The translations under genes and the position numbers were made by a program. Source: Flavobacteria bacterium RIFCSPLOWO2_12_FULL_35_11 (lineage in GTDB: Bacteria; Bacteroidota; Bacteroidia; Flavobacteriales; Flavobacteriaceae). Taken from it: DNA of 64,000 nucleotides. The stretch's first letter is position 1. Each line of letters opens with the position of its first letter. The notes under the pieces were generated by a model. The model worked only from the letters and a program-made list of their open reading frames with translations. It was not told the origin of the DNA and ran no database searches. Below, in pieces: positions 1-34,828 of the stretch. The DNA lies in the NCBI GenBank assembly GCA_001800975.1, contig MGWK01000026.1, positions 1-64,000 of the forward strand, in the 5' to 3' direction.

Positions 1-4
1 GGAA

Positions 5-34: not shown

Positions 35-82
35 AAATATAATATTAAACTTTCTTGGATCCCAAAAATTTACCTTGGCTGA

Positions 83-908: not shown

Positions 909-937
909 ATAAAGTTCAATTTCTATAAAAAAACAAC

Positions 938-969: not shown

Positions 970-1026
970 TAACTTTGACTAAATCAATGTTTTAAAAATA
1001 AGTTAAATCATCATAATAGTAAAACT

Positions 1027-2280
1027 ATGGAAGCAAAAATCACCCTACCAGACCAAGTAAAAGACCCGGAAATCATTAAAGAGCTCATATCAAAGTTGGT
1101 TACCATGGTAAATGTCAATCAGATTTATATGAGCCCGGGAGAAAAAGAACATGCCTTTACCTATCGATTTACCATAATTATTGAAGACATGGCAAAACGA
1201 TTTAAAGAACGTGTCAGAGAAATTCTGAATGATTTATTCGAAAAACATCCGTCGTTTTATGTCCGTTTCTTTACCCTTCATCAAGTAGTTCACGAAACAA
1301 CTCTTGGCAACACCTTTTTTCTGAATAATTGTTCCGAAGAAACGCTCATTTATTACCATAACACATATAACAAGACCTGGCTTTTTCAAAAGGTCGATTT
1401 ATCGGCAGTTCTTGAGACTGCAAACCATCATTTTTTAATGGAAAAGCAGCGGATTATCTCTTTTAAAAAAGGGGCAGCTCTATTTTTAGAAGAAAAGAAT
1501 TATGCACTGGCAGCTTTTATGCTCCATCAAACCATAGAACTCAGTTTTACCACCCTAGAAAGGTTTTTGGTGGGCGTAAGTTTTACGGAACATACGATAA
1601 GTGGCCATCAAGCATATTTAGGACAGGTCATAAAAGACCTTGGGAAGGTATTTCCAAAGAAAAATGAGAACCAAATACAGCTTTTAAATAAGCTGAATAC
1701 CGCCTATGTAAAAAGTAGGTATGCCCTTAATTACAACATAGGAAATAAGCAAGTACATAAAATAAATGAAAAAGCCGAAGAACTAATTTGTAAGCTAACG
1801 TTTTATTTTGAATCAGAAATACTCAAATGTGAAACATCACTTGAAAAGCTTTCTCACAATGAAACAAAAGAAGACCTGCCCATTAGCACAGAAAAAGAAA
1901 ACAGTATAAACGATATAAAGAATATAGATGATACAGAGCCAACAACTTTGGAGAAGATAAAAGAATTAAGCAAACAGAATTTTAAAACGCTTACCCCAAT
2001 AGGCGGCATCCAAGAAGGTTATTATTTGAATTATGCCCGGGTTTATGATTATATGGAATTGTTCTGCACATTAAGATCGACCCTTAATGTATGTATCCTC
2101 GCCTTAAGCGAACAGTTGGATTGTACCCTAGATATTACACATAAGGAAACAGACGTAAAAAATGTATTGGAGTTCGCCAAAAATCTAATCCCTTTTGAAG
2201 AAAGCAATTATCTGGATGAAATGCGAAAACTCATTTTGTCAACTGAAGAGGCTACATTTTATCCAAAAAAAGAAAAATAA
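1027..2280 (+). CDS. HEPN-domain protein with degenerate nucleotidyltransferase-like N-terminus
   Basis: 417 residues in three parts. Residues 1-135 have the alternating strand/helix look of a minimal nucleotidyltransferase domain, but no GS...DxD metal motif is visible. Residues about 140-265 are a helical HEPN domain (FKKGAALFLEEKNYALAAFMLHQ; later KSRYALNYNI). Residues about 340-412 form a small helical domain that recurs as the whole of the next gene. The HEPN RNase signature R-x4-6-H is not intact: R231 is followed five residues later by Asn237 instead of His. The protein may therefore be a non-catalytic HEPN. It is first in a probable three-gene operon (gaps of 20 and 31 bp) controlled by the palindrome upstream. 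Related proteins are common beside Bacteroidetes mobile elements; their function is unproven. Confidence 0.7.
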   Translation: MEAKITLPDQVKDPEIIKELISKLVTMVNVNQIYMSPGEKEHAFTYRFTIIIEDMAKRFKERVREILNDLFEKHPSFYVRFFTLHQVVHETTLGNTFFLNNCSEETLIYYHNTYNKTWLFQKVDLSAVLETANHHFLMEKQRIISFKKGAALFLEEKNYALAAFMLHQTIELSFTTLERFLVGVSFTEHTISGHQAYLGQVIKDLGKVFPKKNENQIQLLNKLNTAYVKSRYALNYNIGNKQVHKINEKAEELICKLTFYFESEILKCETSLEKLSHNETKEDLPISTEKENSINDIKNIDDTEPTTLEKIKELSKQNFKTLTPIGGIQEGYYLNYARVYDYMELFCTLRSTLNVCILALSEQLDCTLDITHKETDVKNVLEFAKNLIPFEESNYLDEMRKLILSTEEATFYPKKEK

Positions 2281-2300
2281 TAATATCTAATCAGACTACT

Positions 2301-2645
2301 ATGGAAACCAAAGACACTATTAATAAGACAGACAAAGAAAAACTGGAAGCGGTAATTCAACTCTTAAATCCAAGAAAGCGCAGAAACCTTAAACGAGAAA
2401 ATAGTGAGTTGATGCAGGAAGTTACCTTTGAAGTAACAGACAATGGAGAGTTGCGCTATATCATCTCTTGCCTTTTAAGAGTATGTATTTTGGCTTTGGA
2501 AGGGGATAGTGACTTTTCATCCCCAAGACTCGCCAATTGCTCAAAAGATTTGACAATAGCTACGATATTGGATTTAGTGGACAGTATTCAACCCGATGAA
2601 CAATTAGTGAGTTATGATGCCATTGAAAAACTGTTATTGCCCTAG
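2301..2645 (+). CDS. Small protein homologous to the C-terminal domain of the preceding HEPN protein
   Basis: 114 residues. The second half (LRYIISCLLRVCILALEG ... LLLP) lines up with the last 75 residues of the upstream protein (YMELFCTLRSTLNVCILALS ... RKLIL), including a shared VCILAL core and a similar acidic tail. This is a stand-alone copy of that domain, probably arisen by duplication. The N-terminal 45 residues are basic and charged. No catalytic motif is seen. A partner or regulator of the HEPN proteins is a guess from position only. Confidence 0.6.
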   Translation: METKDTINKTDKEKLEAVIQLLNPRKRRNLKRENSELMQEVTFEVTDNGELRYIISCLLRVCILALEGDSDFSSPRLANCSKDLTIATILDLVDSIQPDEQLVSYDAIEKLLLP

Positions 2646-2676
2646 CAAACAATTCAAACTGACCTAATAACTTAAT

Positions 2677-3564
2677 ATGTACTTTATGACACATAAAACC
2701 AAAATTTCGACCCATTTTCCTTATAAGAAGGAACTTTTAGAGCAAATTAAAAAGGTTTTGCCCTTACATTCTGTATATGTCATCAGTGTTTATAAAGAAA
2801 CAAAGAAGCAGGAAATTTTTTTATCACCACCATGCATAAATCCGGAAAAGTTTATAACCTATACGCTACTTATCATTAGCCATAAACCCATTTCAATAAA
2901 TCTAGGGGAATTTATTTATGACTTGTATAACAACATGCAGCAACAATGCAAAGTATATCCTATTGTCTATTCCTTATCTGATGTTTTGGCAAAACTGGAT
3001 TATGGGAATGCTTATTTGAACCGGATTGTCACCCAAACAAAATGTTTGTATCAGGAAAATGATGCGCTAGCTAAGTTCAGTGGTTTTCGCGTATGTTTTC
3101 ATAAAAGTATTTATGAGCAAATTCAAACGGAATGGAACTGCCGAATGGAACGAGCCAATTACCTGCTATCCATAATAGACACAAATGACATTGAAGAAGA
3201 CCCCACTTCCAAACTGGCTGTTATGCACGACGCTTTAGAACAAATCTGTGCGGCGCTGTTGTATATCTTTTGGGAATTTAAACCGCATTACTATTCTTTG
3301 CCTTATTTATTGCATTTATGCAGCCACTTTACCCAATTGCCACAAACGGTTTTTCCCAAAAAGGCATTTAAATCACAGCGTATGTTTTATATACTGTGTA
3401 ATGCGCACCAGCAAATGCGGGAAAGCCAAAATGAATTATCTGTTATGGATGCGGATAAAGCATATAAACTAAGTGAACGGTTTTACCGCAAAGCCAACAA
3501 CCTAGGGATAAAACAACTGGAACATCTTAAAGAACTCCATTATCAGTCCACTAATTTGCAGTAA
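2677..3564 (+). CDS. Second HEPN/nucleotidyltransferase-like protein
   Basis: 295 residues, a divergent paralogue of the protein at 1027. The N-terminal part has the same order of strands (YTLLIISH... resembles YRFTIIIED...), followed by a helix-rich region (about residues 150-280) where a HEPN domain would sit. It lacks the extra C-terminal domain, which here is the separate gene at 2301. I cannot find an intact R-x4-6-H motif. A second ATG nine bases downstream (MTHKTK) could be the true start. It is last in the HEPN operon and is followed by inverted repeats. Confidence 0.6.
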   Translation: MYFMTHKTKISTHFPYKKELLEQIKKVLPLHSVYVISVYKETKKQEIFLSPPCINPEKFITYTLLIISHKPISINLGEFIYDLYNNMQQQCKVYPIVYSLSDVLAKLDYGNAYLNRIVTQTKCLYQENDALAKFSGFRVCFHKSIYEQIQTEWNCRMERANYLLSIIDTNDIEEDPTSKLAVMHDALEQICAALLYIFWEFKPHYYSLPYLLHLCSHFTQLPQTVFPKKAFKSQRMFYILCNAHQQMRESQNELSVMDADKAYKLSERFYRKANNLGIKQLEHLKELHYQSTNLQ

Positions 3565-3599
3565 GTTTTAAAATCGGAATATCATAAAGAAGAAATCCG

Positions 3600-3659
3600 T
3601 TTTTAAACTTTTGGATTTAGAGGCTGGTATTTGCGGCTGAGAATCCGAAAGTTTAAAAA
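3600..3659. repeat. Inverted repeat after the HEPN operon
   Basis: TTTTTAAACTTTTGGATT (3600-3617) faces AATCCGAAAGTTTAAAAA (3642-3659) with one mismatch in 18 bp. It could act as a terminator-like hairpin or mark an element boundary. Confidence 0.5.
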
Positions 3660-3762
3660 TGAACCAAGCTCGCCCTAAGCGAGTGCGGTAGTTTTTACGT
3701 AACTTTTAGGCTAAAATTTAAGCTGACAAATCCCCCCAAATAAAGCCCTATTTTAAGATTTC

Positions 3763-3829
3763 CGTGATTTTTTACGAAAAAAAGCCTTGATTCTATTGGG
3801 CTACGAAGTTTTTTTACGAAAAAATCACG
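3763..3829. repeat. Long A/T-rich inverted repeat
   Basis: Arms 3763-3783 and 3809-3829 (21 nt each, both containing TTTTTTACGAAAAAA with a GTGAT/ATCAC end) are reverse complements except for the central ACG/CGT triplet. The spacer is 25 nt. It lies in a gene-free 730-bp stretch. Confidence 0.5.
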
Positions 3830-4164
3830 AAAATATAAATTTCATGTATTTTATAAGTAATTGATTTGTAATAAATTATGAATAAGTAACATCGCGCAGC
3901 GTGTTACCCTCTTGCTTTTCCCCCTTAGTTTTACAATCACGCTTATATAGAGAATTTTTTATGATAGTAAGTACTTGTAATTAGTAACTTTATATCGGGG
4001 GAAAACTCATAATACTCAATAATTATTAACAATAATTTTGTCAATGAGGTAGGATAATTACATTTTTTTTAACATTTTATCATTAAAAAAGTATTTTCAA
4101 AAGTTATTGTTCATGTAGAATTTAGAATTGTTAACATAGAATTATACATCAAGATATGTAGTCC

Positions 4165-4183
4165 ATTGTTTTGTGAAAACAAT
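4165..4183. promoter_or_regulatory. Candidate operator of the restriction operon
   Basis: A perfect 8-bp inverted repeat, ATTGTTTT-GTG-AAAACAAT, lies 115 bp before the XRE gene that heads the operon. Two related ATTGTTCAT words lie at about 4105 and 4205. Binding by the XRE protein is inferred. Confidence 0.3.
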
Positions 4184-4298
4184 AAATCTTTAAATGAAAA
4201 CATCATTGTTCATAAAAATTTAAGAATTTATTTTGTAATCTTTAATAAAATGACCAATTTAGTCAGGTCAAATTAATTCAGTTTAAATTCTAAAGAAG

Positions 4299-4616
4299 AT
4301 GGAAATTAATAAATCAATAGGTCAGATAATTAGAGATTTTAGAGAGCATAAGGAATTACTTGTGAGACAAGTTGCTGCTTTATTAGAAGTTGATCCATCG
4401 CTACTAAGTAAAATTGAAAGAGGAGACAAAAGACCTACGAGGGAGCAGATAAGATTATTAGCTAAAATTTTAGAAATAGATGAAAAGGAACTAACGATTG
4501 CTTATTTGAGTGATCGACTTGTATATGAAGTGAGGGATGAAAATTTTGCAATGGAAGCTATTAAAGTAGCAGAACAAAAAATCGAATATTTAAAAAGATC
4601 AAATACGGTAGTTTAA
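4299..4616 (+). CDS. XRE-family controller protein of the restriction operon
   Basis: 105 residues: an N-terminal XRE HTH domain (about 8-62; LVRQVAALLEVDPSLLSKIERG) and a charged helical C-terminal extension that may dimerise. Genes of this type placed first in restriction-modification operons act as controller (C) proteins that delay nuclease expression. Only 3 bp separate it from the nuclease/methyltransferase gene, so it is surely co-transcribed. Its target may be the inverted repeat at 4165-4183. Confidence 0.75.
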   Translation: MEINKSIGQIIRDFREHKELLVRQVAALLEVDPSLLSKIERGDKRPTREQIRLLAKILEIDEKELTIAYLSDRLVYEVRDENFAMEAIKVAEQKIEYLKRSNTVV

Positions 4617-4619
4617 GGA

Positions 4620-7600
4620 ATGGCATTTAAAGTAGCAAAAACGAAAGAGGAAGGATTAGCCCAGTTAAAGGAGCTTGTCGGTGCATTTGAAAAAGGCATA
4701 AAAACATTCAGAGATTCAAAGTACAATGAAACTCAACTTAGGAATGACTTTGTGGATTCATTACTTATGTCATTCGGATGGGATGTTGATAATGAAGCTG
4801 GAAAAAATCAATTCCTTCGTGATGTAATCCAGGAAGAATCAATTGAAGTTGAGGATGAAAAATCAAAAAAGAATCCGGATTATACATTAAGAGTACAGGG
4901 ATTGAGAAAACTCTTTGTTGAGGCAAAGAAACCCTATGTTGATATTACCAAATCTGCTAAAGCAGCATTTCAAACAAGGCGTTATGGTTGGAATGCAAAT
5001 CTTGGTATTTCTGTTTTAACGAATTTTGATAAGCTTATAATTTATGATTGTAGGCATAAGCCAAATGCGAATGAGGATGAAAGAATAGCACGAATTTCAG
5101 TGTTTGAGTTTTCCAATTACGTAGAAGCTTTTGATGAAATTTATGATTTAATATCTTTTGAATCAGCTTCTAATGGTACGTTGGATGATTTATTTTCCAT
5201 TTATGAAAGAGTAGGCCAGACTTTTGATGATTATTTTCTTGAACAGATTGAAAGTTGGAGGGAAAGGCTTGCCCTTTCTGCTGTTCAACGTAATGAACGT
5301 CTGGGTAGTGAGGATATTAATTTCTTAATTCAACGATTACTTAACCGAATTATTTTTCTTCGAATTTGTGAAGATAGAACAATTGAAAAGTTTGAAACTC
5401 TGAAAAACATTCAGAATTATGATGAATTAAAAACACTATTTAAACAGTCTGATAAAAAATACAATTCTGGACTATTTGATTTTATTGAGGATAACTTATC
5501 GCTTAATATTCAAATTGATTCGGAAGTGCTTATTGAAATATTTAATGAATTATATTATCCGTTAAGCCCTTATGATTTTATTGTTGTTGACCCAACAATT
5601 TTAAGTCAGATATATGAAAAATTCCTTGGAAGCCATGTTGTGCTTGATGAAGGCAGACAACTTTCAATTGTTTCTGAACCAGAAGTTGTAGCTTCTAATG
5701 GAGTGGTTCCAACACCTAAAATCATTGTTGAACAAATTGTCAAAGAAACTCTAACTCCATTAGTTAGTGGAAAAAACTCTGGTGAACTAGCCCTCTTGAA
5801 GATAGCTGATATTTGCTGTGGATCAGGTACTTTTTTAATTTCAATTTATGACTTTCTACTAAAAGCAACTATTGAACGATCTATTGAAGAAGGAATTACT
5901 GACGTAGAATTAATATACGAAATAGCAGAAAACACCTACGGTCTTACACTAAAGGCTAAAAGAAATGTAATAGAACAAAGTATATATGGCGTAGATATTA
6001 ATCCTTATGCTACTGAAGTAACTGAATTCAGTCTTTTGCTGAAGTTATTAGAAGGAGAGAGTGGAGCTTCGATAGACCATTTCATTGGACAGTATGCTAC
6101 TAAAGTTCTCCCCAGTTTGCATAATAATATCAAATGTGGTAATTCATTGGTTGATGATAAGTTCTTTGAATTTATGCCAGAAGCGATTGAAAATGACTTG
6201 GTACTGTATAGAGTAAAGCCATTTGACTGGAATTTAGAATTTCCTTTTCTTAATGATACAAATGGGTTTGATGCAATCGTAGGAAACCCTCCTTATGTTC
6301 GAATTCAGAATTTGGTTAAGTATTCTCCTGAAGAAGTTAAGTATTATCAAAATGATTTATCAGGATTTGCTGTTGCAAAAAAAGAAACAATAGATAAATA
6401 TTACGTATTTATTCAAAGAGCTATTGGATTATTAAATCCAACCGGATTCTTGGGATACATAGTACCTAACAAATTCTTCATTATTAAAGGAGGAAAAGCG
6501 TTACGAAAGTTCATTTCTGAATCGTGCAGCTTTTCTAAGATTATTCACTTTGGAGTAACTCAAGTTTTTCCAGATAGATCTACTTATACAGCGATATTAA
6601 TTCTTCAAAAAGAGGATCGAGATACGTTTAAGTTTAAAAGAATTAAAAAGATCACTCCAGACATATTGGGAACAGGAGATGGATATTTGGAATATGAAAA
6701 GAACGATTTCACAAATGAACCATGGGTGTTCTTGTCTCCGGGAACCAAGGCTATTTTCGATAAACTCAATTCAGGTCATGTACAACCATTAAAATCGCTT
6801 GCGGATATTTGTGTAGGCTTACAAACAAGTAAAGATCCTGTCTATATATTTACTCCTGAAGGAGAAACAGAGAACACCTTTATTTTGAACTCGAACGGAG
6901 AAATAAAAGAAATCGAAAAAGGAATCTGTTTGCCATGTGTTTATGATTTGTCTTTTGGGTTATTTGATACTATTAATCCGAATGCTCAGATGATATTTCC
7001 TTATGTGATTGAAAATGGAAAAGCCGAAGTCATCAGTGAAGATGATTTCATCCAAAATTATCCACTTTGTTGGGATTATCTGAATGAACACAGAGACGAG
7101 TTGGAAAAGAGAAGCATAAATGGCAAAGATCCAAAATGGTATCAATTTGGAAGATCTCAAAGTTTAACCCGGTTTCATGATTCTTCAAAATTAATCTGGC
7201 ACGTACTTTCTACTAAACCATCTTATGTTTTGGACGAATTGAATATTCAGTTCACTGGAGGAGGAAATGGCCCTTATTATTCTCTAGTGAACAATTCAAA
7301 TTATTCAATTCTATATTTTATGGGGATTTTATCACATCCATTATTTGAAAATATGGTAAAAGCAGGGGCAAGTGAATTTAGAGGAGCTTACTATTCACAT
7401 GGTAAACAATTTATTGAGAACATACCAATAAAAATAATTGATGAACAGAACTTAGAAGAGGTTAATTCTTATAAAAACATCATTAAATCTGTGAAAGGAT
7501 TAATCGCTGCGAAAAACCAATACAATGAAACATATGGGGCAAGAAGAGTAATTCTGCAACGTAAGTTAGATATATTAAATAATACTCTCATTGAATCAGT

Positions 7601-7688
7601 GAATAAACTCTACAGCATAAGTTCTGATGAATTTACTACTGTACTTCACGATGAAATGTTTACAAATGAATTAACTGCTGAAGAATAA
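4620..7688 (+). CDS. Type IIG (Eco57I-like) restriction-modification enzyme
   Basis: 1022 residues combining nuclease, N6-adenine methyltransferase and target recognition. The N-terminal nuclease has a PD-(D/E)xK site: D87 in NPDYTLR and E101-A-K103 in FVEAKKP. The methyltransferase has the AdoMet loop DICCGSGTF (about 397-405) and the catalytic NPPY (556-559). The C-terminal third looks like a TaqI-type specificity domain (GNGPYYS, QFIENIPI near its end). All parts are intact, so one polypeptide could cut and modify. The length fits type IIG/IIL enzymes. The next gene starts 2 bp after its stop. Confidence 0.85.
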   Translation: MAFKVAKTKEEGLAQLKELVGAFEKGIKTFRDSKYNETQLRNDFVDSLLMSFGWDVDNEAGKNQFLRDVIQEESIEVEDEKSKKNPDYTLRVQGLRKLFVEAKKPYVDITKSAKAAFQTRRYGWNANLGISVLTNFDKLIIYDCRHKPNANEDERIARISVFEFSNYVEAFDEIYDLISFESASNGTLDDLFSIYERVGQTFDDYFLEQIESWRERLALSAVQRNERLGSEDINFLIQRLLNRIIFLRICEDRTIEKFETLKNIQNYDELKTLFKQSDKKYNSGLFDFIEDNLSLNIQIDSEVLIEIFNELYYPLSPYDFIVVDPTILSQIYEKFLGSHVVLDEGRQLSIVSEPEVVASNGVVPTPKIIVEQIVKETLTPLVSGKNSGELALLKIADICCGSGTFLISIYDFLLKATIERSIEEGITDVELIYEIAENTYGLTLKAKRNVIEQSIYGVDINPYATEVTEFSLLLKLLEGESGASIDHFIGQYATKVLPSLHNNIKCGNSLVDDKFFEFMPEAIENDLVLYRVKPFDWNLEFPFLNDTNGFDAIVGNPPYVRIQNLVKYSPEEVKYYQNDLSGFAVAKKETIDKYYVFIQRAIGLLNPTGFLGYIVPNKFFIIKGGKALRKFISESCSFSKIIHFGVTQVFPDRSTYTAILILQKEDRDTFKFKRIKKITPDILGTGDGYLEYEKNDFTNEPWVFLSPGTKAIFDKLNSGHVQPLKSLADICVGLQTSKDPVYIFTPEGETENTFILNSNGEIKEIEKGICLPCVYDLSFGLFDTINPNAQMIFPYVIENGKAEVISEDDFIQNYPLCWDYLNEHRDELEKRSINGKDPKWYQFGRSQSLTRFHDSSKLIWHVLSTKPSYVLDELNIQFTGGGNGPYYSLVNNSNYSILYFMGILSHPLFENMVKAGASEFRGAYYSHGKQFIENIPIKIIDEQNLEEVNSYKNIIKSVKGLIAAKNQYNETYGARRVILQRKLDILNNTLIESVNKLYSISSDEFTTVLHDEMFTNELTAEE

Positions 7689-7690
7689 TT

Positions 7691-9334
7691 ATGGGACTTG
7701 TAAAAGAAAAATTAGACGCTCGGAAACTTAGAGGCGGTTACTATACTCCAAAAGAGATTGCTCGATTTTTATGTAAATGGGCTATAACTGAGAATACTCA
7801 AAAAATACTGGAACCAAGTTGTGGAGATGGCAATTTTGTTGAAGAGGCCATCCTTAGATTTAAAGAACTTGGAGTGGGTGAAGAAGGATTAAAAGGACGA
7901 ATTAAAGCGATTGAACTCAATGAGGAAGAGGCACTTAAGGCAAAATTTAGAGCTAAAGAATTGGGCGTGAATTCGACTACGGTAGTAAATTCAGATTTCT
8001 TTCAATATTTGAATTCAAACGGAGTTGATAAATATGATGCTGTTCTGGGTAATCCTCCATTTATACGATATCAAAGCTTTCCAGAAGAACATAGAGATTT
8101 GGCAATTTCTATGATGAGGGATTTAGGATTAAATCCAAATAAATTAACTAACATTTGGGTTCCTTTTTTGGTTATTTCTGCCTCTCTACTTAAGCCCAAT
8201 GGTAGGTTAGCCATGGTTATACCTGCTGAACTTTTTCAGGTAAAATATGCCGCCGAAACTCGTATTTTCCTATCTAATTTCTTTGATCGCATCACGATTG
8301 TAACATTCAAAAAACTTGTCTTTAAAAACATACAGCAAGAAGTTGTATTGATGCTTTGTGAAAAGAAAACAGCAAAGAGCAAAGGTATTCGAGTAATTGA
8401 ATGTGAAAACTTAGACGATTTAAATAAACTGAATTTCAAAGAAATAAACGGATCAAATGTAAAACCGATCGATCATTCATCTGAGAAATGGACAAAATAC
8501 TTTTTATCAGAGGAAGAAATTAATTTATTAAAACGACTAAAGAATGATAAAAGGGTTATTCCGTTTAGTGACATAATGGAAGTTGATGTTGGTTTAGTTA
8601 CAGGACGGAATGAGTTTTTTATGATGAATGAAAGCCAAGTAAAAGAATGGGGACTTGGAAAGCACACAATACCAGTTGTTAGCAAATCAAATCAATTAAA
8701 AGGAATTACTTTTTCCAAAAAAGATTTCAAAGAGAATTCAATAGCTGAACAGTCAATTCATTTATTCATGCCTCCCAATGTGAATTTTGAGGATCTACCA
8801 AAGGAATGCCAGAAGTATATTAAATATGGTGAATCAATGAATTTTCACACAGGTTATAAGTGTAGAATCAGAAAACGTTGGTATATCACACCATCATTGT
8901 GGTCTCCAAATGGTTTTGCTCTAAGACAAGTTGGAGATTATCCCAAATTAGCTATAAATGAAACAGGAGCAGCTTCAACAGATACAGTTCATAGAGTTCG
9001 ATTTAAAGAAAATACAGATAAACAACTAGCAACAATTTCGTTTTTAAACTCATTGAGTTTTGCGTTCTCTGAAATCACTGGCAGAAGTTATGGTGGAGGA
9101 GTTTTAACATTTGAGCCAACTGAAATTGAAGATATTAGAATGCCGATTTTAAAGAATATTTCTGTTGATTTTAAAAAAATAGACCAACTTATTAGGAACC
9201 GAGAAATTGAAAAGGTTTTGGATATTGTTGATGAAGAATTATTAATAAAGCAACATAAGTTTTCAAGAGAAGATGTAAACGCATTAAGAGGTATCTGGAG
9301 AAAAATGGCTAGTAGAAGGAATAATAGAAAATAA
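7691..9334 (+). CDS. Eco57I-like N6-adenine DNA methyltransferase
   Basis: 547 residues. It opens with the family motif RGGYYTPKEIARFL, then AdoMet motif I (EPSCGDGNF, 41-49) and catalytic motif IV NPPF (121-124), followed by a TaqI-like recognition domain (DVGLVTGRNEFF; SYGGGVLTFEP). No PD-(D/E)xK domain is visible, so it is a methylase only. In type IIG systems a second stand-alone methylase modifies the other strand of an asymmetric site. That is the likely role, but a separate specificity cannot be excluded. Confidence 0.85.
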   Translation: MGLVKEKLDARKLRGGYYTPKEIARFLCKWAITENTQKILEPSCGDGNFVEEAILRFKELGVGEEGLKGRIKAIELNEEEALKAKFRAKELGVNSTTVVNSDFFQYLNSNGVDKYDAVLGNPPFIRYQSFPEEHRDLAISMMRDLGLNPNKLTNIWVPFLVISASLLKPNGRLAMVIPAELFQVKYAAETRIFLSNFFDRITIVTFKKLVFKNIQQEVVLMLCEKKTAKSKGIRVIECENLDDLNKLNFKEINGSNVKPIDHSSEKWTKYFLSEEEINLLKRLKNDKRVIPFSDIMEVDVGLVTGRNEFFMMNESQVKEWGLGKHTIPVVSKSNQLKGITFSKKDFKENSIAEQSIHLFMPPNVNFEDLPKECQKYIKYGESMNFHTGYKCRIRKRWYITPSLWSPNGFALRQVGDYPKLAINETGAASTDTVHRVRFKENTDKQLATISFLNSLSFAFSEITGRSYGGGVLTFEPTEIEDIRMPILKNISVDFKKIDQLIRNREIEKVLDIVDEELLIKQHKFSREDVNALRGIWRKMASRRNNRK

Positions 9335-9339
9335 ATATA

Positions 9340-9558
9340 ATGGTAAGGTATAAAAATTTAGGTGGAGATTCAGGAGTTGCAGGTTATGAACTTGGAGCTG
9401 ATAATATCATAGTAGTTTTCAAATGTGGCAAAAGACCCTACAGATGGAGCTATAGAAAAGCAGGTCAACATCATGTAGAAACTATGAAAAAATTAGCGGA
9501 AACAGGACAAGGGTTGAATAGTTACATCATGACACGAGTTAAAAATTTATACGATTAG
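9340..9558 (+). CDS. Small KTSC-like protein
   Basis: 72 residues. The centre (IIVVFKCGKRPYRWSYRKAG ... LNSYIMTRVKNLYD) resembles the KTSC fold, which occurs alone or fused to nucleases and toxins and may bind nucleic acid. The match is by pattern only. Its place between methyltransferase and nuclease genes (gaps of 5 and 3 bp) ties it to the same operon; an accessory or regulatory function is a guess. Confidence 0.5.
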   Translation: MVRYKNLGGDSGVAGYELGADNIIVVFKCGKRPYRWSYRKAGQHHVETMKKLAETGQGLNSYIMTRVKNLYD

Positions 9559-9561
9559 AAA

Positions 9562-11511
9562 ATGAGAGTACTTACCAAATCTCGATTTAAACTTGGTCTT
9601 GAATGTCCGAATAAACTTTATTACACAAAGAAAAAGGAATATGCAGATACAAAGGTCTCTGACACATTTTTAGAAGCATTGGCAGAAGGAGGTTTTCAAG
9701 TAGAAGAATTGGCTAGAATGCATTATCCAAATGGGGTGTTAATAGAAGGAAATGACTGGGATTATCAACTTTTATGGGAACAAACACAAGAACTTTTAAA
9801 GCAAGAGAATGTAATTATTTATGAGGCAGCATTTTTAATCGATGGTTTATTTATAAGAACAGATGTTCTAGTAAAACATGGGGGTAATATAGAATTAATA
9901 GAAGTCAAAGCAAAATCATTTACTCCAGACGATGAATATCTTTTTATAGGAAAAAGGGGAGGAATGGTAAGTAGTTGGAAGCCATACCTGTTTGATATAG
10001 CCTTTCAGAAATATGTTATACAGTTTTGTTTTCCTCAATGGAATATACAATCATATATAATGATGGCTGACAAGTCTAAGAAAGCAAGTATAAATGGATT
10101 AAACCAACTTTTTAGAATTAGTAGCAAAGGAGAAAACAGAACTGGTATTTTGAAAAAAGTAAGTACGATTGAAGAAACAGGCAATCCAGTTCTAGGAAGA
10201 AAAAATGTTACTCAAATTGTTGCAGATATTGAAGCAAACAAATACAAATACCATGATGGTCTAACATTCATAAAATCCATTAATCAATTTAAAACATTTT
10301 ATCAAAAAGATGAGTACGCTAACTGGAAAACTTCTTTTAGTGCTTGTAAATCCTGTGAATTTAAAAGTGAAGATGATGAGTTAAAATCAGGATTTAAAGA
10401 GTGTTTTAACAAACAACATAACTGGACTGAAAATGACTTTACAAAGCCCAATATTTTTGATGTTTATTTTTTTACTAAAGGGAATAAATTATTTGAAGAC
10501 GGAATTTATTTTAAAGACAAACTAACAGAAGATAATGTAGGATTAAAAGTTGAAGCAGAGAAATTAACTACTTCACATAGGCAATGGCTTCAAATAGAAA
10601 AAGAAGTCAATAATGATAGCACTTTATATGTTGATTTAGAAGGGTTAAAAGATGAGATGAATAAATGGGTATTTCCTTTACATTTCATAGATTTTGAAAC
10701 AAGCGCTGTTGCTTTGCCATTTAATAAGGGTTTAAAACCTTATGAACAAATAGCGTTTCAGTTTTCTCATCATATCTATCATGAAAATGGTAAAATTGAA
10801 CACGCTAATGAATATATAAATAATAAAGCCGGAGTATTTCCAAATTTTGAGTTTTTACGAGCTTTAAAAGAAACTTTAGAAAAAGATAATGGAACTATCT
10901 TTAGATATTCAAATCACGAGAACACAATCCTTAATGCAATATATGCTCAATTACCTGATTCCGAAGAAGATGATCGAGAGGAGCTAATAAAATTTATACA
11001 TAGTATTTCTCATTCCAAATCAGATAGTGCGGTTAAATGGAAAGGAAATCGAGATATGGTTGATTTATGGGATGTTGAAAAACGTTTTTATTATAATCCT
11101 TTAACTAAAGGTTCTAATTCCATAAAAGCAATTTTACCAGCCTCATTGAGTTCAAGCAAATTTCTTCAAGAAAAATATTCAAAGCCTCTTAATCAAATAA
11201 ACGTGTCAAGTAAAAATTTTTCCGAAAATCACGTTTGGTTGGAAATTGAAAATGATATTGTAAAAAGTCCATATAAAATGCTACCATCCCTTTTTGATGA
11301 TTGGAGTGAAGAGCAAATAGAAAATACTTTATCTGAAATAGAGGACATCGCTAATGGTGGAGCAGCATTGACCGCCTATGGTAAATTACAATATACAGAT
11401 ATGGAGCAATCCGAAATTGATGAGTTAACGAGTGCATTGTTGAAATACTGTGAGTTAGATACTTTAGCGATGGTTATGATTTATGAGCATTTTAAGGAGA
11501 TAACTGATTAA
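9562..11511 (+). CDS. DUF2779 protein: Cas4/RecB-like nuclease plus DEDD exonuclease-like domain
   Basis: 649 residues. The N-terminal half is a PD-(D/E)xK nuclease with D101 and E114-V-K116, framed by cysteines C15, C262, C265 and C281, the pattern of an iron-sulphur cluster in Cas4/AddB-type nucleases. The C-terminal half begins with HFIDFET (D377, E379), motif I of DEDD-type 3'-5' exonucleases, and ends with a conserved KYCELDTLAM segment. This is the DUF2779 architecture. DNA-end processing during defence or repair is likely. It is embedded in a six-gene restriction operon (3-bp gaps on both sides), so it probably acts with, or supplements, the type IIG enzyme. Confidence 0.75.
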   Translation: MRVLTKSRFKLGLECPNKLYYTKKKEYADTKVSDTFLEALAEGGFQVEELARMHYPNGVLIEGNDWDYQLLWEQTQELLKQENVIIYEAAFLIDGLFIRTDVLVKHGGNIELIEVKAKSFTPDDEYLFIGKRGGMVSSWKPYLFDIAFQKYVIQFCFPQWNIQSYIMMADKSKKASINGLNQLFRISSKGENRTGILKKVSTIEETGNPVLGRKNVTQIVADIEANKYKYHDGLTFIKSINQFKTFYQKDEYANWKTSFSACKSCEFKSEDDELKSGFKECFNKQHNWTENDFTKPNIFDVYFFTKGNKLFEDGIYFKDKLTEDNVGLKVEAEKLTTSHRQWLQIEKEVNNDSTLYVDLEGLKDEMNKWVFPLHFIDFETSAVALPFNKGLKPYEQIAFQFSHHIYHENGKIEHANEYINNKAGVFPNFEFLRALKETLEKDNGTIFRYSNHENTILNAIYAQLPDSEEDDREELIKFIHSISHSKSDSAVKWKGNRDMVDLWDVEKRFYYNPLTKGSNSIKAILPASLSSSKFLQEKYSKPLNQINVSSKNFSENHVWLEIENDIVKSPYKMLPSLFDDWSEEQIENTLSEIEDIANGGAALTAYGKLQYTDMEQSEIDELTSALLKYCELDTLAMVMIYEHFKEITD

Positions 11512-11514
11512 ATT

Positions 11515-12519
11515 ATGCCAAAAAATAAAGAAGCTCTAAAAAGATACAGAATAATACATAATATATTACGTAGAGGAGGAAAGCACAAAACAAGTAGGAT
11601 TGTTAAAATTTGTAATGATGCTGGAATTCCTGTCAAATTGAGAACAATTCAGACTGATCTAAAAGATTTAGCCCAAGACACTGAATTAGGTTTTTTCTTA
11701 CCTATTGAAAAAGACGAAAGTACAAAGACTTATTATTATACAGATATCCCTAAAAATATTTTCCCTTCAGTAGAATTAGACCCAGGTGAAGTAAATGCAT
11801 TGCTTTTTTATGCAAAAACTGTTAACCAATATAAAGATTATCCTGTTTTTAAAGATATTACTAATGCAGTTCAAAAAGTAATAGACAATTCTAATATTAG
11901 TCCTGAAATAAAAAAACTTTTTGAAAAAGAGACTTTATTAGAAACTGAAAGACATCCTGAAGTAGGTGGTAGTGAGTTAATTGCAGAAATTCTTGATGCC
12001 ATTTCAAAGAAAAAAATACTTGAAATAGAATATCAGAAATTTGATGATGAAATTAAAAAGCATAAAATCAAACCAATTCTTTTAAAGGAGGATAAACAAT
12101 TATGGTATATAATAGGATTAAATGTAAAACGTGAAAGTATAATTACCTTAGCTTTAGATAGAATAGTAGATGTAACTATATTGAATGAAGATTTTGATTC
12201 TATTGATTTTGATAGTCTTGAATATTTTAAATATTCTTTTGGAATTACTGTTCCTGATAGTGAAGCAATTGATGTTGTTATAGATTTTGACCCAAAACAA
12301 GGTAATTATCTTAGAACACTTCCAATTCATAATACACAAGAGATTTTAGAAGATAGTGACAAAAAGTTTATTATTAAGATAAAAGTTAAACCATCGTATG
12401 AGTTTTATTCAAAAATTTTCAGCTATGGTGCAGATGCTACAATTATATCTCCAAAACCAGTTATAGAAAGAGTTTTAAAGACTTTCGAAAAAGCTTTAAG
12501 CAAATATTCTCCTAGTTAA
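11515..12519 (+). CDS. WYL-domain transcriptional regulator
   Basis: 334 residues. The N-terminus (1-70) is a winged HTH of the DeoR-like type (RTIQTDLKDL recognition helix). The middle (about 165-240) is a WYL domain (EIEYQKF ... LWYIIG ... ALDRIVDV) and the C-terminus is a WCX-like region. WYL proteins sense nucleic-acid ligands and control many phage-defence loci. It ends the six-gene operon and is followed by a symmetric site (12546-12568) and the ubiquitin-like operon, so it may control either or both. Confidence 0.8.
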   Translation: MPKNKEALKRYRIIHNILRRGGKHKTSRIVKICNDAGIPVKLRTIQTDLKDLAQDTELGFFLPIEKDESTKTYYYTDIPKNIFPSVELDPGEVNALLFYAKTVNQYKDYPVFKDITNAVQKVIDNSNISPEIKKLFEKETLLETERHPEVGGSELIAEILDAISKKKILEIEYQKFDDEIKKHKIKPILLKEDKQLWYIIGLNVKRESIITLALDRIVDVTILNEDFDSIDFDSLEYFKYSFGITVPDSEAIDVVIDFDPKQGNYLRTLPIHNTQEILEDSDKKFIIKIKVKPSYEFYSKIFSYGADATIISPKPVIERVLKTFEKALSKYSPS

Positions 12520-12545
12520 TTATTAAATAAATTAATCTTTTTTTA

Positions 12546-12568
12546 ATGGCGCAAGTAGGTTGCGCCAT
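12546..12568. promoter_or_regulatory. Perfect inverted repeat between WYL gene and Ubl operon (operator or terminator)
   Basis: ATGGCGCAA - GTAGG - TTGCGCCAT, a GC-rich 9-bp stem in AT-rich DNA. The downstream tract (TGTTGTTATTTATTTG) is only weakly T-rich, so it may be a poor terminator of the restriction operon. Equally it may be an operator 52 bp before the Ubl start codon. Confidence 0.5.
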
Positions 12569-12620
12569 GTTGTTATTTATTTGTACCATAAAATTATTGT
12601 TTAATTCTAAAAGATAAAAA

Positions 12621-12875
12621 ATGGATACAAAATCAAACAAAGATGAGAAAAATATAACTTTTTTCATTGGCAAAACAAAACATGAAACTGAAAAATCTAC
12701 TCTAACAGTTAAGCAGATATTAGAAGATTTTGCAAAAGTAAAAACTACAGAAAAATCTCTAGCTCTTAAAGAAGGAAATGGACATCATGAATATGCTGAT
12801 ATTAATGAGTCTATTGATATGAAAAATGGTATGCACTTTGTACTTTTTGACAAAACACCAACCACTGCATCATGA
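12621..12875 (+). CDS. Ubiquitin-like protein of a bacterial conjugation-like operon
   Basis: 84 residues with the strand-helix-strand order of a beta-grasp fold: NITFFIGKTKHETE (hairpin), LTVKQILEDFAKV (helix), then strands ending in HFVLFD. It resembles the small bacterial ubiquitin-like families (DUF2604 / multi-ubiquitin-like). The C-terminus is DKTPTTAS, with no Gly-Gly or even a terminal Gly (the last Gly is G70), so direct adenylation of a glycine end is not possible without an unusual rule or trimming. Its stop overlaps the start of the E2-like gene (ATGA), so expression is coupled. Function is inferred from the operon. Confidence 0.7.
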   Translation: MDTKSNKDEKNITFFIGKTKHETEKSTLTVKQILEDFAKVKTTEKSLALKEGNGHHEYADINESIDMKNGMHFVLFDKTPTTAS

Positions 12876-13249
12876 TATATGGATCTGAACAATTTTTAAA
12901 AGATTTTGAAGAGATAGGTTATACGCCGGAATTAGTAAAGGGAAATGATGGACAAACTTATGCTGTATTTAAAGAGTTCGAAATTGAAATAGGAAAGTTT
13001 TCAGGAAGAGTGATTGATTTAGGTTTATTGATTTTTCCTGATTATCCAAGAATAGTACATAATTCCATACATGTAAAAGCAACACCACAACTTTTTGAAA
13101 AAACCGATAAAATTGATGGAGTTCGTAATATTCTTGACAGCGGACTTGGATCTGAGTGGAGGTATTGGAGCTATCGTTTTAATGCAGTTCCTGAAGATAA
13201 TGCTATGCATTTAATGTCGCAAATTAACGGAGTATTTAAAAGGGCTTAA
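12872..13249 (+). CDS. E2/UBC-fold protein without any cysteine
   Basis: 125 residues. The pattern of an N-terminal helix, strands, the loop LIFPDYPRIVHNSIHV (YP motif at 58-59, like the E2 core YP..P) and a C-terminal helix points to the prokaryotic E2 family E type. The sequence contains no cysteine, so the classical thioester-forming residue is absent. The segment WRYWSYRF (96-103, with S94 and S100 nearby) lies about where the E2 catalytic loop should be. It starts inside the Ubl gene and ends 1 bp before the JAB-E1 gene. Its role could be a scaffold or a non-Cys transfer enzyme. Confidence 0.65.
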   Translation: MIYGSEQFLKDFEEIGYTPELVKGNDGQTYAVFKEFEIEIGKFSGRVIDLGLLIFPDYPRIVHNSIHVKATPQLFEKTDKIDGVRNILDSGLGSEWRYWSYRFNAVPEDNAMHLMSQINGVFKRA

Positions 13250-13250
13250 A

Positions 13251-14645
13251 ATGAAAAGATTAAGTATTGCAATCCCAGAAAATTTAAATGATAAATTATG
13301 TAATCATTTAATAAGGGAAGATAAGGATGAAGATTTAATTTTTGCATTATGGAACGAATCCATTGGTTCTTATCGGGAAACAGCATTAATTAGTGAGCTT
13401 GTTTTTCCTGAAGAAGGAGATCGGCAGAGGCATGGCAATGTTAGTTTTAATCCTCAATACATTAAAAGGGTTTGTAGGATAGCTGCTCAAAAAAATACAG
13501 GTATTGTTTTCATTCATAGTCACCCATTTCCTGGTTGGCAAAATATGAGCAATGATGATGTTATAGCTGAAAAAGAGAGGCTTAGTGAAACTGTAGAGGT
13601 GTTGACAGGTTATCCGTTAGTAGGAATGACTGTTGGCTCCGATAGGACTTGGAGTGGAAGAAGGTGGATGTATAATGAAAATACAAATGAATATGATATT
13701 CAATGGGCTGAAAATGTAAGAAGTGTTGGAAGGAATTTAAAGATAGATTATACGGATTTTTTAGTGCCATCTCCAAAATTCAGTAAGCAATTTAGGAGAA
13801 CACGAGCAGTTTGGGGCAAAATTAATCATGAAAAGTTGGCAAAGATGCTCATAGGAATTGTTGGTCTAGGCAGTGTTGGAAGCATGGTCGCTGAAGGTCT
13901 GGCACGAATGGGAATGGAAAAATTTGTTTTGATTGATTTTGATAAAATCGAGGAACATAATTTAGATCGTCTGGTAGGTTCAACAAAAAAAGATATTGGG
14001 AAATATAAGGTTGATATTGCTGATAGACAAATAAATAGTGTTGGGACATCTGCTAAAGTTGATATTAATAAATCTAATAAAAGTTTATATGAAGAAGAAG
14101 CATATAGACTTGCTATAGATTGTGATATACTTTTTAGTTGTGTTGATCGACCACGCGCAAGATACATTTTAAATCATATTGCTTATTCTCATTTAATACC
14201 AGTAATTGATGGTGGCATTCAAGTAAGATTTGAAGGCGATGAAATTAATGGGTTTAATTTTTCTGGTGCTGATTGGCAGTTGCAAACCATTTCTCCTAAT
14301 AAGCCATGTTTACAATGCTTAGAGGTATATAATACAAGTGATGTTTCTCTAGAAATGGATGGTATGCTGGATGATGCATCATATATTAAAGGACTTCCAA
14401 AAGATGAATATAAAAAGAAAAATAATGAAAATATTTTCCCGTTTAGTTCAAATTTGGCATCATTAGAAATCTTTCAATTAGTAGCTTTTGCTATAGGTGC
14501 TGGTGGGGTTTATGACTTTGGAGTTCAACGATTTAGATACAATCCTGGAATGATAAGCCAATATTATGATAGAGAATGTAAAAAAGGATGTGATTTTGTG
14601 AAATCAATAGCTACTGGGGATAAATATATTAAGGTTTTTAATTAA
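13251..14645 (+). CDS. JAB deubiquitinase - E1 (ThiF) fusion
   Basis: 464 residues. Residues 1-150 form a JAB/MPN metalloprotease with the JAMM site H89-S-H91, S100 and D103 (eight residues between the second His and Ser instead of seven). Residues about 175-464 form an E1/ThiF adenylating domain: GxGxxG at 205-210, D229/D231, N237, R240, then SCVDRPRARY. Zinc pairs are C353-C356 and C443-C447. The other E1-domain cysteines, C291 and C297, sit in the Rossmann core, so no free catalytic cysteine is evident, as in MoeB/ThiF enzymes. One protein therefore offers both Ubl activation and removal or processing. It is the last gene of a coupled three-gene operon. Confidence 0.85.
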   Translation: MKRLSIAIPENLNDKLCNHLIREDKDEDLIFALWNESIGSYRETALISELVFPEEGDRQRHGNVSFNPQYIKRVCRIAAQKNTGIVFIHSHPFPGWQNMSNDDVIAEKERLSETVEVLTGYPLVGMTVGSDRTWSGRRWMYNENTNEYDIQWAENVRSVGRNLKIDYTDFLVPSPKFSKQFRRTRAVWGKINHEKLAKMLIGIVGLGSVGSMVAEGLARMGMEKFVLIDFDKIEEHNLDRLVGSTKKDIGKYKVDIADRQINSVGTSAKVDINKSNKSLYEEEAYRLAIDCDILFSCVDRPRARYILNHIAYSHLIPVIDGGIQVRFEGDEINGFNFSGADWQLQTISPNKPCLQCLEVYNTSDVSLEMDGMLDDASYIKGLPKDEYKKKNNENIFPFSSNLASLEIFQLVAFAIGAGGVYDFGVQRFRYNPGMISQYYDRECKKGCDFVKSIATGDKYIKVFN

Positions 14646-14739
14646 TGTCAGCCTCTTAAAATTATAACTAAAATATTAAGTAAAATGAGTGTTCAAGTTT
14701 TGGTATATTGTTTCATTAAAATTTCATTCATTTGAATCA

Positions 14740-14877
14740 ATGTTACAATTGTTAGAAAGTAAAATTTTAACAGAGATTAATAAGTTGATTTCGGGTAAGG
14801 ATTTTACAATGAATAGCTTAGAAGAATTGAAAAAAATAAATACAATTTTAAAGCAAGATGAAAAACCCAGCATATAA
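14740..14877 (+). CDS. Possible small protein after the Ubl operon
   Basis: A 45-residue ORF (MLQLLESKILTEINKL...) predicted to be mostly helical and charged. The frame extends upstream to a GTG at 14689. Amino-acid composition is credible but no family is recognised and no good ribosome-binding site is seen. It may be a chance ORF. Confidence 0.25.
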   Translation: MLQLLESKILTEINKLISGKDFTMNSLEELKKINTILKQDEKPSI

Positions 14878-15272
14878 CAAAGAACTGAACTAAAAATTTC
14901 ACATATTATTTTCTCAAGTTTAATGTAATATTTCCTTTCTAAAACCCAGTAGATAAAAAGATTATCAAACATTAAAAAAAACATTAGTTTAAATTATATT
15001 TTTCTATCATTAATTGTATATTTGCCACCGCAAAGACAAGTAAATTTTGTTTTTAAATAGTTCTTTTTGACTTTAGTGTACAATTCGGTGAATCATACTA
15101 AATTAAAAGTGTTTAAATACTTGAAATATAGCGGAATACAGAATTAAAATTAGTTCTGCCACCCCGACAAATGGTTTGAAGAAAATTTATTTTCCGAAAA
15201 TTATTTAAGGCTTTGGTGGAAAGCATTGCTTTTCACAACATAAAGTTTCTGGATTATTAAATGAATCCTAAT
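14878..15272. other. Gene-free leader before tRNA-Arg
   Basis: It contains TATATTTG (15017-15024), a match to the Bacteroidetes -7 element TAnnTTTG, followed by a GCCACCGCAAAG start-like segment. It may be the promoter of a long precursor carrying the tRNA. No repeat of the tRNA 3' end is seen here. Confidence 0.35.
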
Positions 15273-15346
<74 letters not shown>

Positions 15347-15352
15347 CAAGTT

Positions 15353-15380
15353 AACCTACTGATATTCAGTAGGTTTTTCT
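15353..15380 (+). terminator. Terminator of the tRNA transcript
   Basis: Stem AACCTACTGA / TCAGTAGGTT (10 bp, loop TAT) followed by TTTT, 7 nt after the tRNA. Confidence 0.8.
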
Positions 15381-15577
15381 GACTTAAAATGGTTTTGTTT
15401 TTCTGCTAGAATCCATTTGCATAATATTTTTTTAATTTTTATAGAAACTTGTATTCTAGTTTTTTATAATATTTATCTTTCTCATATTGACAAAGGTTTT
15501 AGGGTACGTCAAATTCTGTGTAGACTTTATAGTTCGTTTTGAAGATTAGCTGTTTAAAGATTAATTTTTTTAAATTA

Positions 15578-16600
15578 CTAGAAAGCCGTTGATTTTCTTT
15601 CAATAAGTTTGGTTGACAATACAATCGTTTTATACTTAAATTCTTTGCCTTTTTTATGCGCTTTAATTTCTTTTAATAACAATTTTAATGCTTTTTTTCC
15701 CATCTCAAAACCAGGCTGATCTATAGTACTTAAAGAAGGTGTAATAACAGAAGCCATAAACCAATTACTAAAACCAATTATAGCAATTTGATCAGGTATT
15801 TTAACGCCAACTTCATTAAAATAAGCAACAACCCCAATACCAACAAGATCAGTTATTGCGAAAATTCCATCAACATCCTTGTGTTCAGTGTAAATTTTCT
15901 TTGCAAAATTATAACCTTCATCAAAATTTACTTTTTCACATGTAAATACAATTGATCTATCAAATTTCATATTATAATCTTCCAATGCTTTTTTATAACC
16001 TAAAAAGCGATCAATGGAATTTTGTGGATTTAAGGGGCCTCTAAAATGGGCAATTTTCTTACAGCCACATTTAATTAAGTGTTCTGTTGCAGCATATCCT
16101 GCATTTCTATCGTCAATAATTACTTTTGAGCAGTCTATTAATTTCGAAATTTTATCAAATAAAACCAAAGGAGTGTTATTTGCAATAACTTTTTTTAAAT
16201 GATCTAAATTAGTTGTGTTATTAGATAAAGACATCAAAATTCCATCAACCCTTTTACTCAATAATAAATCTATTTGTTTTTTTTCAAGTTCCTCAGATTC
16301 ATTCGACTGTAAAATAATAACCAAATAGCCTTTTTTTTCAGCTTCTTCAATGATGGCATTTACAATATTGGAAAAGAAGTGGTGAACAATCTCAGGGATT
16401 ATTAAGCCAATAGTTTTTGATTCTTTAGTTCGAAGGTTTACAGCAAAAGAATTAGGTCTGTAATTCAGCTTTTCAGCCAGTTTTATAACAGCAGCTTTCG
16501 TTTTTGGACTTACATCTTTATAATTTTTTAAAGCCTTTGAAACCGTTGTAATTGAAATACCTAATTCTAAGGCAATTTGTTTTAGTGTAACTTCTCCCAT
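15578..16600 (-). CDS. LacI-family repressor of the sucrose locus
   Basis: 340 residues. The N-terminal LacI HTH (TLKQIALELGISITTVSKAL, then hinge region YRPNSFAVNLR) is followed by a two-lobed sugar-binding domain (IGLIIPEI..., VDGIFAITD, IGFSNW). It is divergent from the TonB receptor gene, and the 152-bp gap holds two copies of a CGAAAACGTTTTCG palindrome, the classical LacI-type operator. It most likely represses the locus until a sucrose-derived ligand binds. Confidence 0.9.
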   Translation of the reverse strand: MGEVTLKQIALELGISITTVSKALKNYKDVSPKTKAAVIKLAEKLNYRPNSFAVNLRTKESKTIGLIIPEIVHHFFSNIVNAIIEEAEKKGYLVIILQSNESEELEKKQIDLLLSKRVDGILMSLSNNTTNLDHLKKVIANNTPLVLFDKISKLIDCSKVIIDDRNAGYAATEHLIKCGCKKIAHFRGPLNPQNSIDRFLGYKKALEDYNMKFDRSIVFTCEKVNFDEGYNFAKKIYTEHKDVDGIFAITDLVGIGVVAYFNEVGVKIPDQIAIIGFSNWFMASVITPSLSTIDQPGFEMGKKALKLLLKEIKAHKKGKEFKYKTIVLSTKLIERKSTAF

Positions 16601-16641
16601 ATTATAAAATTAGGTAAAATTTATGAATAGTGAAATCAAAA

Positions 16642-16679
16642 TCGAAAACGTTTTCGGCAAAATCGAAAACGTTTTCGAT
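16642..16679. promoter_or_regulatory. Twin LacI-type operators
   Basis: The 14-bp palindrome CGAAAACGTTTTCG occurs at 16643-16656 and 16664-16677. The centres are exactly 21 bp apart, two helical turns, so two LacI dimers would bind the same DNA face. They lie 42 bp from the repressor start and 73 bp from the receptor start and could control both directions. Confidence 0.85.
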
Positions 16680-16752
16680 TTTATTTTAGTAATTAAATAC
16701 ATAGTCAGTTTTTACATTCGATTTATTAATCAAATTTAATAACTTTAATATT

Positions 16753-34813: not shown

Positions 34814-34828
34814 AATAATCATTAACCG

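Follow-up and report, generated by a model that had tools for sequence, protein, structure and literature searches.

A Bub operon of a distinct branch, with an Ala/Ser-ended ubiquitin-like protein and no BubE found, in a Flavobacteriaceae contig

Textbook ubiquitin chemistry hands the tag from cysteine to cysteine, a rule that the bacterial ubiquitination-like (Bub) family seems to break. In the part available here, the survey of Iyer, Burroughs and Aravind of 2006 (PMC1779556) describes a 'type 6e' operon whose E2 lacks a conserved cysteine, is RWD-like and is probably inactive; it records one species of this type with a solo ubiquitin-like protein (Ubl), and several new Ubl families without a terminal Gly. 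The locus described here occupies positions 12621–14645 of a 64,000-nucleotide stretch of DNA (the window; contig MGWK01000026.1 of Flavobacteria bacterium RIFCSPLOWO2_12_FULL_35_11, positions 1 to 64,000) and is almost certainly a Bub operon of type 6e, not a new kind of system. The operon is real and intact and belongs to a distinct branch, and it is the features of that branch, an Ala- or Ser-ended Ubl and no BubE found, that are distinctive here, not those of the family. Taken as a whole, the reading of the locus as a Bub operon of this branch with hydroxyl-based chemistry and control by a WYL protein is given a probability of about 0.6. Its three genes are as follows.

12621..12875, + strand: BubA-like single Ubl, 84 residues, C terminus TPTTAS without Gly (open reading frame (ORF), homologue profile)
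12872..13249, + strand: BubB-like E2-fold protein, 125 residues, without Cys, with a conserved Ser100 (Prok-E2_E, family profile, AF2/Foldseek)
13251..14645, + strand: BubCD-like fusion of a JAMM peptidase and an E1 adenylation domain, 464 residues, with a conserved Tyr378 (BubCD match, residues)

The Ubl and E2 genes share an ATGA overlap at 12872–12875, and a single base (13250) separates the E2-like gene from the JAMM–E1 gene, exactly where an earlier annotation made from the letters alone (the sequence-only reading) had placed three coupled ORFs. Its assignment of them to the Iyer–Aravind ubiquitin-like operons, later Bub, is borne out by matches to BubCD and BubB and by the type 6e layout. 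Four features of that type are present (a JAMM domain fused at the E1 N terminus, a Cys-less E2 fold, the Ubl as first gene and a Tyr370 equivalent) and two are missing, the C-terminal Gly of the Ubl and BubE/DUF6527 (protein Y). Residue conservation was counted over 32 operons with all three parts readable, namely that of the window, 16 found in genomes, 14 in plasmid records and one in a viral contig, and these counts depend on the alignment. Thirteen of 325 plasmid records with an E1 match were inspected, and one more operon came from 81 records matching the L033 query; G270_L016 (partial E1) and Brady_L028 (short E1) were excluded from trees and kept in the residue counts.

The 125-residue E2-like protein contains no Cys, as the sequence-only reading had said, and thus also lacks the catalytic E2 Cys characteristic of Bil and of Cap2 from the type II cyclic-oligonucleotide-based anti-phage signalling system (CBASS). 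It barely passes the Pfam model Prok-E2_E (25.2 bits, cut-off 25) and reaches 43.0 bits with a family profile of 23 rows from which it was left out; a 24-row family profile that includes it finds Citrobacter BubB at 1.6e-25, and a search of solved structures with the single sequence found nothing. A model predicted by AF2 from a four-row alignment (pLDDT 76.1, pTM 0.72) has BubB (9eae_C) as its top Foldseek match, with probability 1.00, TM score 0.64 and E 7.3e-3, and no match at E ≤0.001; BubB is followed by the ubiquitin E2 variant (UEV) domains of TSG101 (E ≥0.14), then by UFC1 and other UBC folds, with unrelated chains interspersed. With BubB first and UEV and UBC folds after it, the predicted fold is therefore UBC-like and closest to BubB, and the unrelated fold that the sequence-only reading had named as damaging to its claim was not seen. 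Across the 32 operons, Cys occupies any one E2 column in 5 rows at most, and 12 of the 32 rows lack Cys entirely, so the Cys-free E2 is a state of the family; local loss of a conserved Cys in the window's copy was considered and rejected on this count, and the operons of its clade show no pattern indicating such a loss. The sequence-only reading had treated the missing Cys as peculiar to this variant and as its central surprise. That part does not hold, because the available text of the 2006 survey already describes it for this operon type (PMC1779556).

The third gene product carries a ThiF domain (Pfam, 2e-33). Prok-JAB reaches only 11.5 bits on it, under the cut-off, so the JAMM assignment is based on the JAMM residues and on the match to BubCD, whose Citrobacter chains are the first solved-structure matches (3.9e-26, residues 8–360). 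The PADLOC E1–E2 and BilD models cover only part of the protein. Among the JAMM residues, E27 is present in 31/31 rows and H89, H91, S100 and D103 are each present in 32/32 operons (S100 and D103 in 28/29 of an earlier alignment), as are the adenylation-type residues G205, G210, D229, R240, K253 and D299. Sequence or fold establishes a Bub-family Ubl, a Cys-free E2-fold partner and a JAMM–E1 fusion that keeps the adenylation and JAMM residues tested. AF2 gave a poor model of the E1 protein (pLDDT 53.9; TM score 0.31 and root-mean-square deviation 21 against BubCD), and with its quality too low for more, the structure search made with it was used for PDB entry titles only.

Resemblance of the E1 domain to MoeB and ThiF, together with a Ubl that lacks the canonical Gly, would also suit a system that conjugates no protein, either a regulated switch of Ubl adenylation or binding or a carrier pathway like those of MoeB and ThiF. 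Such a role is improbable, as the best structural relative is BubCD and not MoeB, which follows far behind (6.7e-10); the protein scores 64.6 bits against the moeB model (cut-off 376.55) and 79.1 bits against adenyl_thiF (cut-off 275.25), and with both scores under their cut-offs and a Ubl ending in Ser it is no equivalog of either. An E2-fold partner and fused JAMM residues accompany the E1 in 32/32 operons, a set that was chosen for three readable parts, and the title of Ye et al. 2026, which is all that is drawn on here, reportedly refers to protein conjugation in the Bub pathway.

Eight cysteines occur in the fusion protein, at 16, 75, 291, 297, 353, 356, 443 and 447; the sequence-only reading listed the last six correctly and omitted Cys16 and Cys75, neither of which falls in an E1 alignment column where 5 or more of the 24 rows have Cys. 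C297 is kept in 27 and C291 in 18 of the 32 operons. The zinc-type residues 353, 356, 443 and 447 are kept in 24, 23, 10 and 23 of 31 rows, respectively, the count for C443 being alignment-dependent (16/23 in an earlier alignment). The solved Citrobacter BubCD has no Cys at the aligned CxxC place, and the zinc-type pairs are therefore not essential to the Bub family. No catalytic Cys is obvious in the E1, as had been stated; what had been missed is Tyr378, conserved in 29/31 rows, which follows the first zinc-type Cys pair and precedes the domain's end. Its aligned counterpart is Tyr370 in a Leclercia BubCD homologue that has its JAMM Asp at position 104, a numbering that fits the title of PDB entry 9eav, 'BubCD(D104A/Y370F)-BubB-BubA(155-229)', and suggests that the authors of that entry regarded Tyr370 as important to catalysis.

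With no catalytic-type Cys conserved in either E1 or E2, hydroxyls would be expected to handle the acyl group, and the non-thioester chemistry proposed by the sequence-only reading is the natural inference. E1 would adenylate the C-terminal Ser84 of the Ubl, and the acyl group would be taken by hydroxyls, first that of E1 Tyr378; then, or jointly, the E2 and its Ser100 would pass the tag to a target or position the target, and the JAMM domain would remove the tag. A hydroxyl step through Tyr378 is judged to have an even chance of being right, and Ser100 is a rather unlikely acyl carrier. Two Ser residues of the E2 had been put forward as candidates: Ser100 is conserved in 31/32 rows (Asn in Haloplanus), and Ser94 is not conserved, the commonest residue at its position being Pro (9/32). 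HMMER aligns E2 Trp96 with the Trp following the catalytic Cys in a eukaryotic E2, and the distance of Ser100 to the last helix of the E2 model would presumably suit the place of a classical E2 Cys.

Several points weigh against this chemistry. Tyr378 is replaced by Ala in Halorarius and by Arg in G033, and the Tyr370-to-Phe change in 9eav is no proof of a nucleophile role. Ser100 was found in 26/29 rows of an earlier alignment, in which two rhizobial rows were shifted by two residues; it may be structural, and its match to the classical E2 Cys place is unsure. Protein conjugation is a candidate activity only, as are the oxyester relay and a role in phage defence. The E2-like protein could instead be a non-catalytic UEV/RWD-like adaptor, its fold only presenting the Ubl or the target, with the target attacking the E1 adenylate or the Tyr378 ester directly. 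TSG101-type UEV proteins are E2 variants without a catalytic Cys, and it is TSG101 domains that follow BubB in the fold search; a solved BubCD–BubB–BubA complex exists, and the 2006 survey, in its available part, calls these E2s probably inactive and RWD-like (PMC1779556). The near-invariance of Ser100, set against a mean column identity of 24% in this divergent E2, argues the other way, and a structural role for it would fit equally. An adaptor is a serious minority prospect, and it overlaps the relay set out above, which leaves the E2 step open; the confidences given here are judgements, and those of these two explanations do not sum to one.

The Ubl matched no Pfam model, the Multi_ubiq level not being reached, and scored 41.0 bits against a profile of 27 homologues (itself and its closest relative excluded), the best of 1000 shuffles reaching 7.8. 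A search of its own genome for Multi_ubiq (PF14452) gave no match but carries no information, as 0/14 controls matched. The protein ends in DKTPTTAS, with Ser84 as the final residue; the absence of a terminal Gly had been noticed from the letters and proves to be common to the whole branch. A tree built from 30 E1 proteins groups the window E1 with that of G725 (support 100/99), whose operon has the same architecture (53, 46 and 48% identity for E1, E2 and Ubl) and a Ubl ending in NPVS. Both belong to one clade of 12 rows (100/100) with G186, G1141, G1343, G392 and six actinobacterial plasmid operons, to which two haloarchaeal operons are sister (14 rows, 100/99); an earlier, 27-row tree gave the corresponding clade 10 rows (100/99). 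G270_L016 was added to the branch on the basis of its 44% identity to the window protein and its TPVA junction, giving 13 operons.

The Ubl C terminus is Ala (9) or Ser (4) in all 13 branch operons, two of these ends being inferred fusion junctions. Among the 12 unfused Ubls from outside the branch, seven have a terminal Gly and the other five end in S, S, I, H and D, with a Gly standing ahead of a four-residue tail in the two that end in H and D; a Ser-ended Ubl is thus not exclusive to the branch. The Ubl/E2 junctions of nine fused proteins were set by hand, seven outside the branch at Gly and two inside it after VA, and because the seven were placed at Gly they were not counted as evidence for Gly. 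A BubE/DUF6527 profile run over 77 loci matched in 0/13 branch operons (21 clade loci) and in 12/19 others, within the stretches examined, the contig of G270_L016 ending within its E1 and so bounding the search there. Genome-wide, PF20137 was present in 4/11 genomes of the search and in 0/4 branch genomes (G000, G186, G392 and G270). BubE absence is not unique to the branch, BubE being accessory and not in all Bub operons, and the combination of Ala/Ser tail and BubE absence counts as a single event on the tree rather than as an association seen repeatedly. Nor is a C-terminal Gly strictly defining for Bub, since the 2006 survey, as far as available, reports Gly-less Ubl families (PMC1779556). 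No title or abstract describing a Gly-less or BubE-less Bub branch was found, a weak negative as two key Bub papers lay outside the coverage, and the novelty of the branch is provisional. Two branch members (L015 635–1477 and L016 623–1483) encode Ubl–Ubl–E2 fusions in which TPVA is directly joined to the E2, and these offer a natural setting in which to test whether cleavage after Ala can do without BubE.

The operon is sporadically distributed. At E ≤1e-15 the E1 was found in 11/395 genomes of a phylum sample and 4/395 of an order sample, and at 1e-40 in 2/385 genomes of a class sample and 5/393 of a family sample, while two genomes of the same genus gave none at that threshold; the samples overlap and contain the window's genome. 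One of the four order-level matches, G672 (L064), is a MoeB-like protein and was excluded, as was a second, weaker match in the window's own genome (27% identity). Scanning genome contigs with the E1 gave 5 loci, four in Pelagibacteraceae and one in Pseudomonas, with best segments 25–56% identical, which were not read as operons. With the E2 as sole query, tblastn gave no match in plasmids or phages and only the E2 itself among 395 genomes, and none of 12 phage records matching the E1 covered 80% of it. Viral contigs gave no E1 match with the single protein or with a close-clade alignment; a wider E1 alignment found 28 loci, and the three inspected (L032–L034) were all Bub-like. Only L033 was counted; L032 is partial, and L034 carries, at 4484–5891, a Bub-like operon with JAMM and E1 on separate ORFs. 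The sporadic distribution and the empty same-genus genomes would be expected of a decaying or inactive operon, which is nevertheless very improbable, given three intact coupled ORFs that keep the tested JAMM and adenylation residues and, in G725, a relative of the same architecture at the identities given above.

Control of the operon is sought in the DNA upstream of it, where three features are found.

9562..11511, + strand: DUF2779 protein, paired with the WYL gene in the window genome and in G1246 (PF11074)
11515..12519, + strand: WYL+WCX transcription-factor-like protein, candidate CapW-type controller (Pfam WYL/WCX; G1246 homologue)
12546..12568, no strand: perfect inverted repeat of 9 bp in the DNA separating the WYL gene from the Bub operon, candidate operator or terminator

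The WYL gene starts 3 bases after the DUF2779 gene and ends 101 bases upstream of the Ubl gene; its product gives weak matches to solved structures, the best at 7e-4. In G1246, a WYL protein 53% identical to that of the window lies directly upstream of a Bub operon of a different branch, one with BubE present and a Ubl ending in TTEG, and a DUF2779 match (64% identical) lies upstream of the WYL gene. That DUF2779 gene is divided into two ORFs in one frame, and perhaps interrupted (L076, reverse strand, reverse complement 2604–4571), and the window has one. The palindrome, ATGGCGCA-N-TGCGCCAT, is conserved at the same place in the intergenic DNA of G1246, and its pattern occurs at only one place in the window's own genome. 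The intergenic DNA of the two loci matches at 69 of 102 columns (60 shuffles: mean 41, maximum 51) and the ends of the WYL genes at 66 of 100, as against only 32 of 146 for the Ubl start; the methyltransferase proteins of the window had no match in the 14-kb G1246 stretch. Taken together, the G1246 case can be read as a DUF2779–WYL–palindrome control cassette that may have moved between Bub operons.

CapW (a WYL protein) or CapH with CapP accompanies 219/544 Bub operons, according to the available part of a 2026 paper (PMC13373217). By analogy with CapW at other Bub operons, the WYL protein near the palindrome at 12546–12568 probably represses the operon and would release it under DNA damage, and WYL control is judged somewhat better than an even prospect. 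Other observations tell against it. The palindrome scans as terminator-like, although such sites are not above shuffles (3 versus 2.1), and its region folds modestly better than shuffles (z −1.83, 8/200 as good); a plain terminator at the end of the DUF2779–WYL pair would also explain it. The WYL and DUF2779 proteins had no match at 1e-4 in the stretches examined of other relatives, including G725, G186, G1141 and G1343, and several other relatives carry a helix-turn-helix or ImmA/IrrE-type gene upstream in place of WYL.

Upstream of the DUF2779–WYL pair lie a type IIG restriction-methyltransferase gene and a second methyltransferase gene; elsewhere, restriction-modification systems are reported upstream of 88/443 capKS pairs (PMC13373217, available part). 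Among the relatives, the Shedu gene SduA adjoins the G725 operon, an AAA ATPase gene in G392 (L061 6477–9193) starts 2 bases after the E1 gene and is a possible extra operon member, and AbiE genes, an Abi gene and restriction-modification-type genes occur near others. These neighbours support a role in conflict by association only. The sequence-only reading had argued for defence from the preceding restriction genes; this is plausible by neighbourhood and by nothing beyond it. The available part of PMC13373217 has Bub not shown to protect against phage and that of a 2025 review has Bil/Bub-type systems appearing mainly in phage defence (PMC12687455). On neighbourhood alone, phage defence is rated modestly probable. 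Elsewhere in the window, a HEPN-domain protein is encoded at 1027–2280, upstream of the restriction genes, and a second restriction-type locus at 33792–36046 comprises HNH, HpaII-like restriction endonuclease and Vsr genes. A tRNA-Arg (tct) gene lies at 15273–15347, 627 bases downstream of the Bub operon, and a scan of window positions 1–15700 for a direct repeat of at least 18 bases reaching it, as tRNA-linked insertion might leave, found none. At 16638–16682, two near-identical palindromes around AAAACGTTTT have the look of a double operator and are flanked by a LacI-type regulator gene (− strand) and a TonB-receptor-like gene (+ strand).

The branch offers a simple natural version of the Bub system, with one Ubl domain, one E2 fold, one E1–JAMM protein, no BubE and no terminal Gly. 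With it one can ask whether a hydroxyl carries the tag, and which one, whether BubE is needed, and how strictly ubiquitin-like tails must end in Gly; the shared DUF2779–WYL–palindrome stretch is a testable control site. That all of these would hold at once, an Ala/Ser-ended tag, a thioester-free oxyester relay from Tyr to Ser, removal by JAMM alone without BubE and a WYL cassette swapped between branches, is doubtful.

Compared with described systems, the locus resembles type 6e of the 2006 survey (PMC1779556, in the available part) in its combination of polyUbl or solo Ubl, inactive E2/RWD-like protein and JAB–E1 fusion, and differs in that the metal-binding protein Y of that type was not found at the window operon. 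With Citrobacter BubA–BubB–BubCD (PDB 9ea4, 9ea5, 9ea8, 9eae and 9eav) it shares a Ubl, an E2 fold without conserved Cys and a JAMM–E1 fusion with a Tyr (370 in Citrobacter, 378 in the window). Unlike the Citrobacter system, the window operon has one stand-alone, Ser-ended Ubl and no BubE/DUF6527 found, and its E1 carries CxxC and CxxxC zinc-type pairs, the CxxC place being empty in Citrobacter BubCD. The Leclercia homologue differs from the window in having a multi-domain BubA fused to BubB; its residues 155–229 end in NNG (Gly229), which fits the solved BubA(155–229). Type II CBASS Cap2 and Bil share with the window operon the E1/E2/JAB logic and an anti-phage context and, unlike it, use E1 and E2 cysteines.

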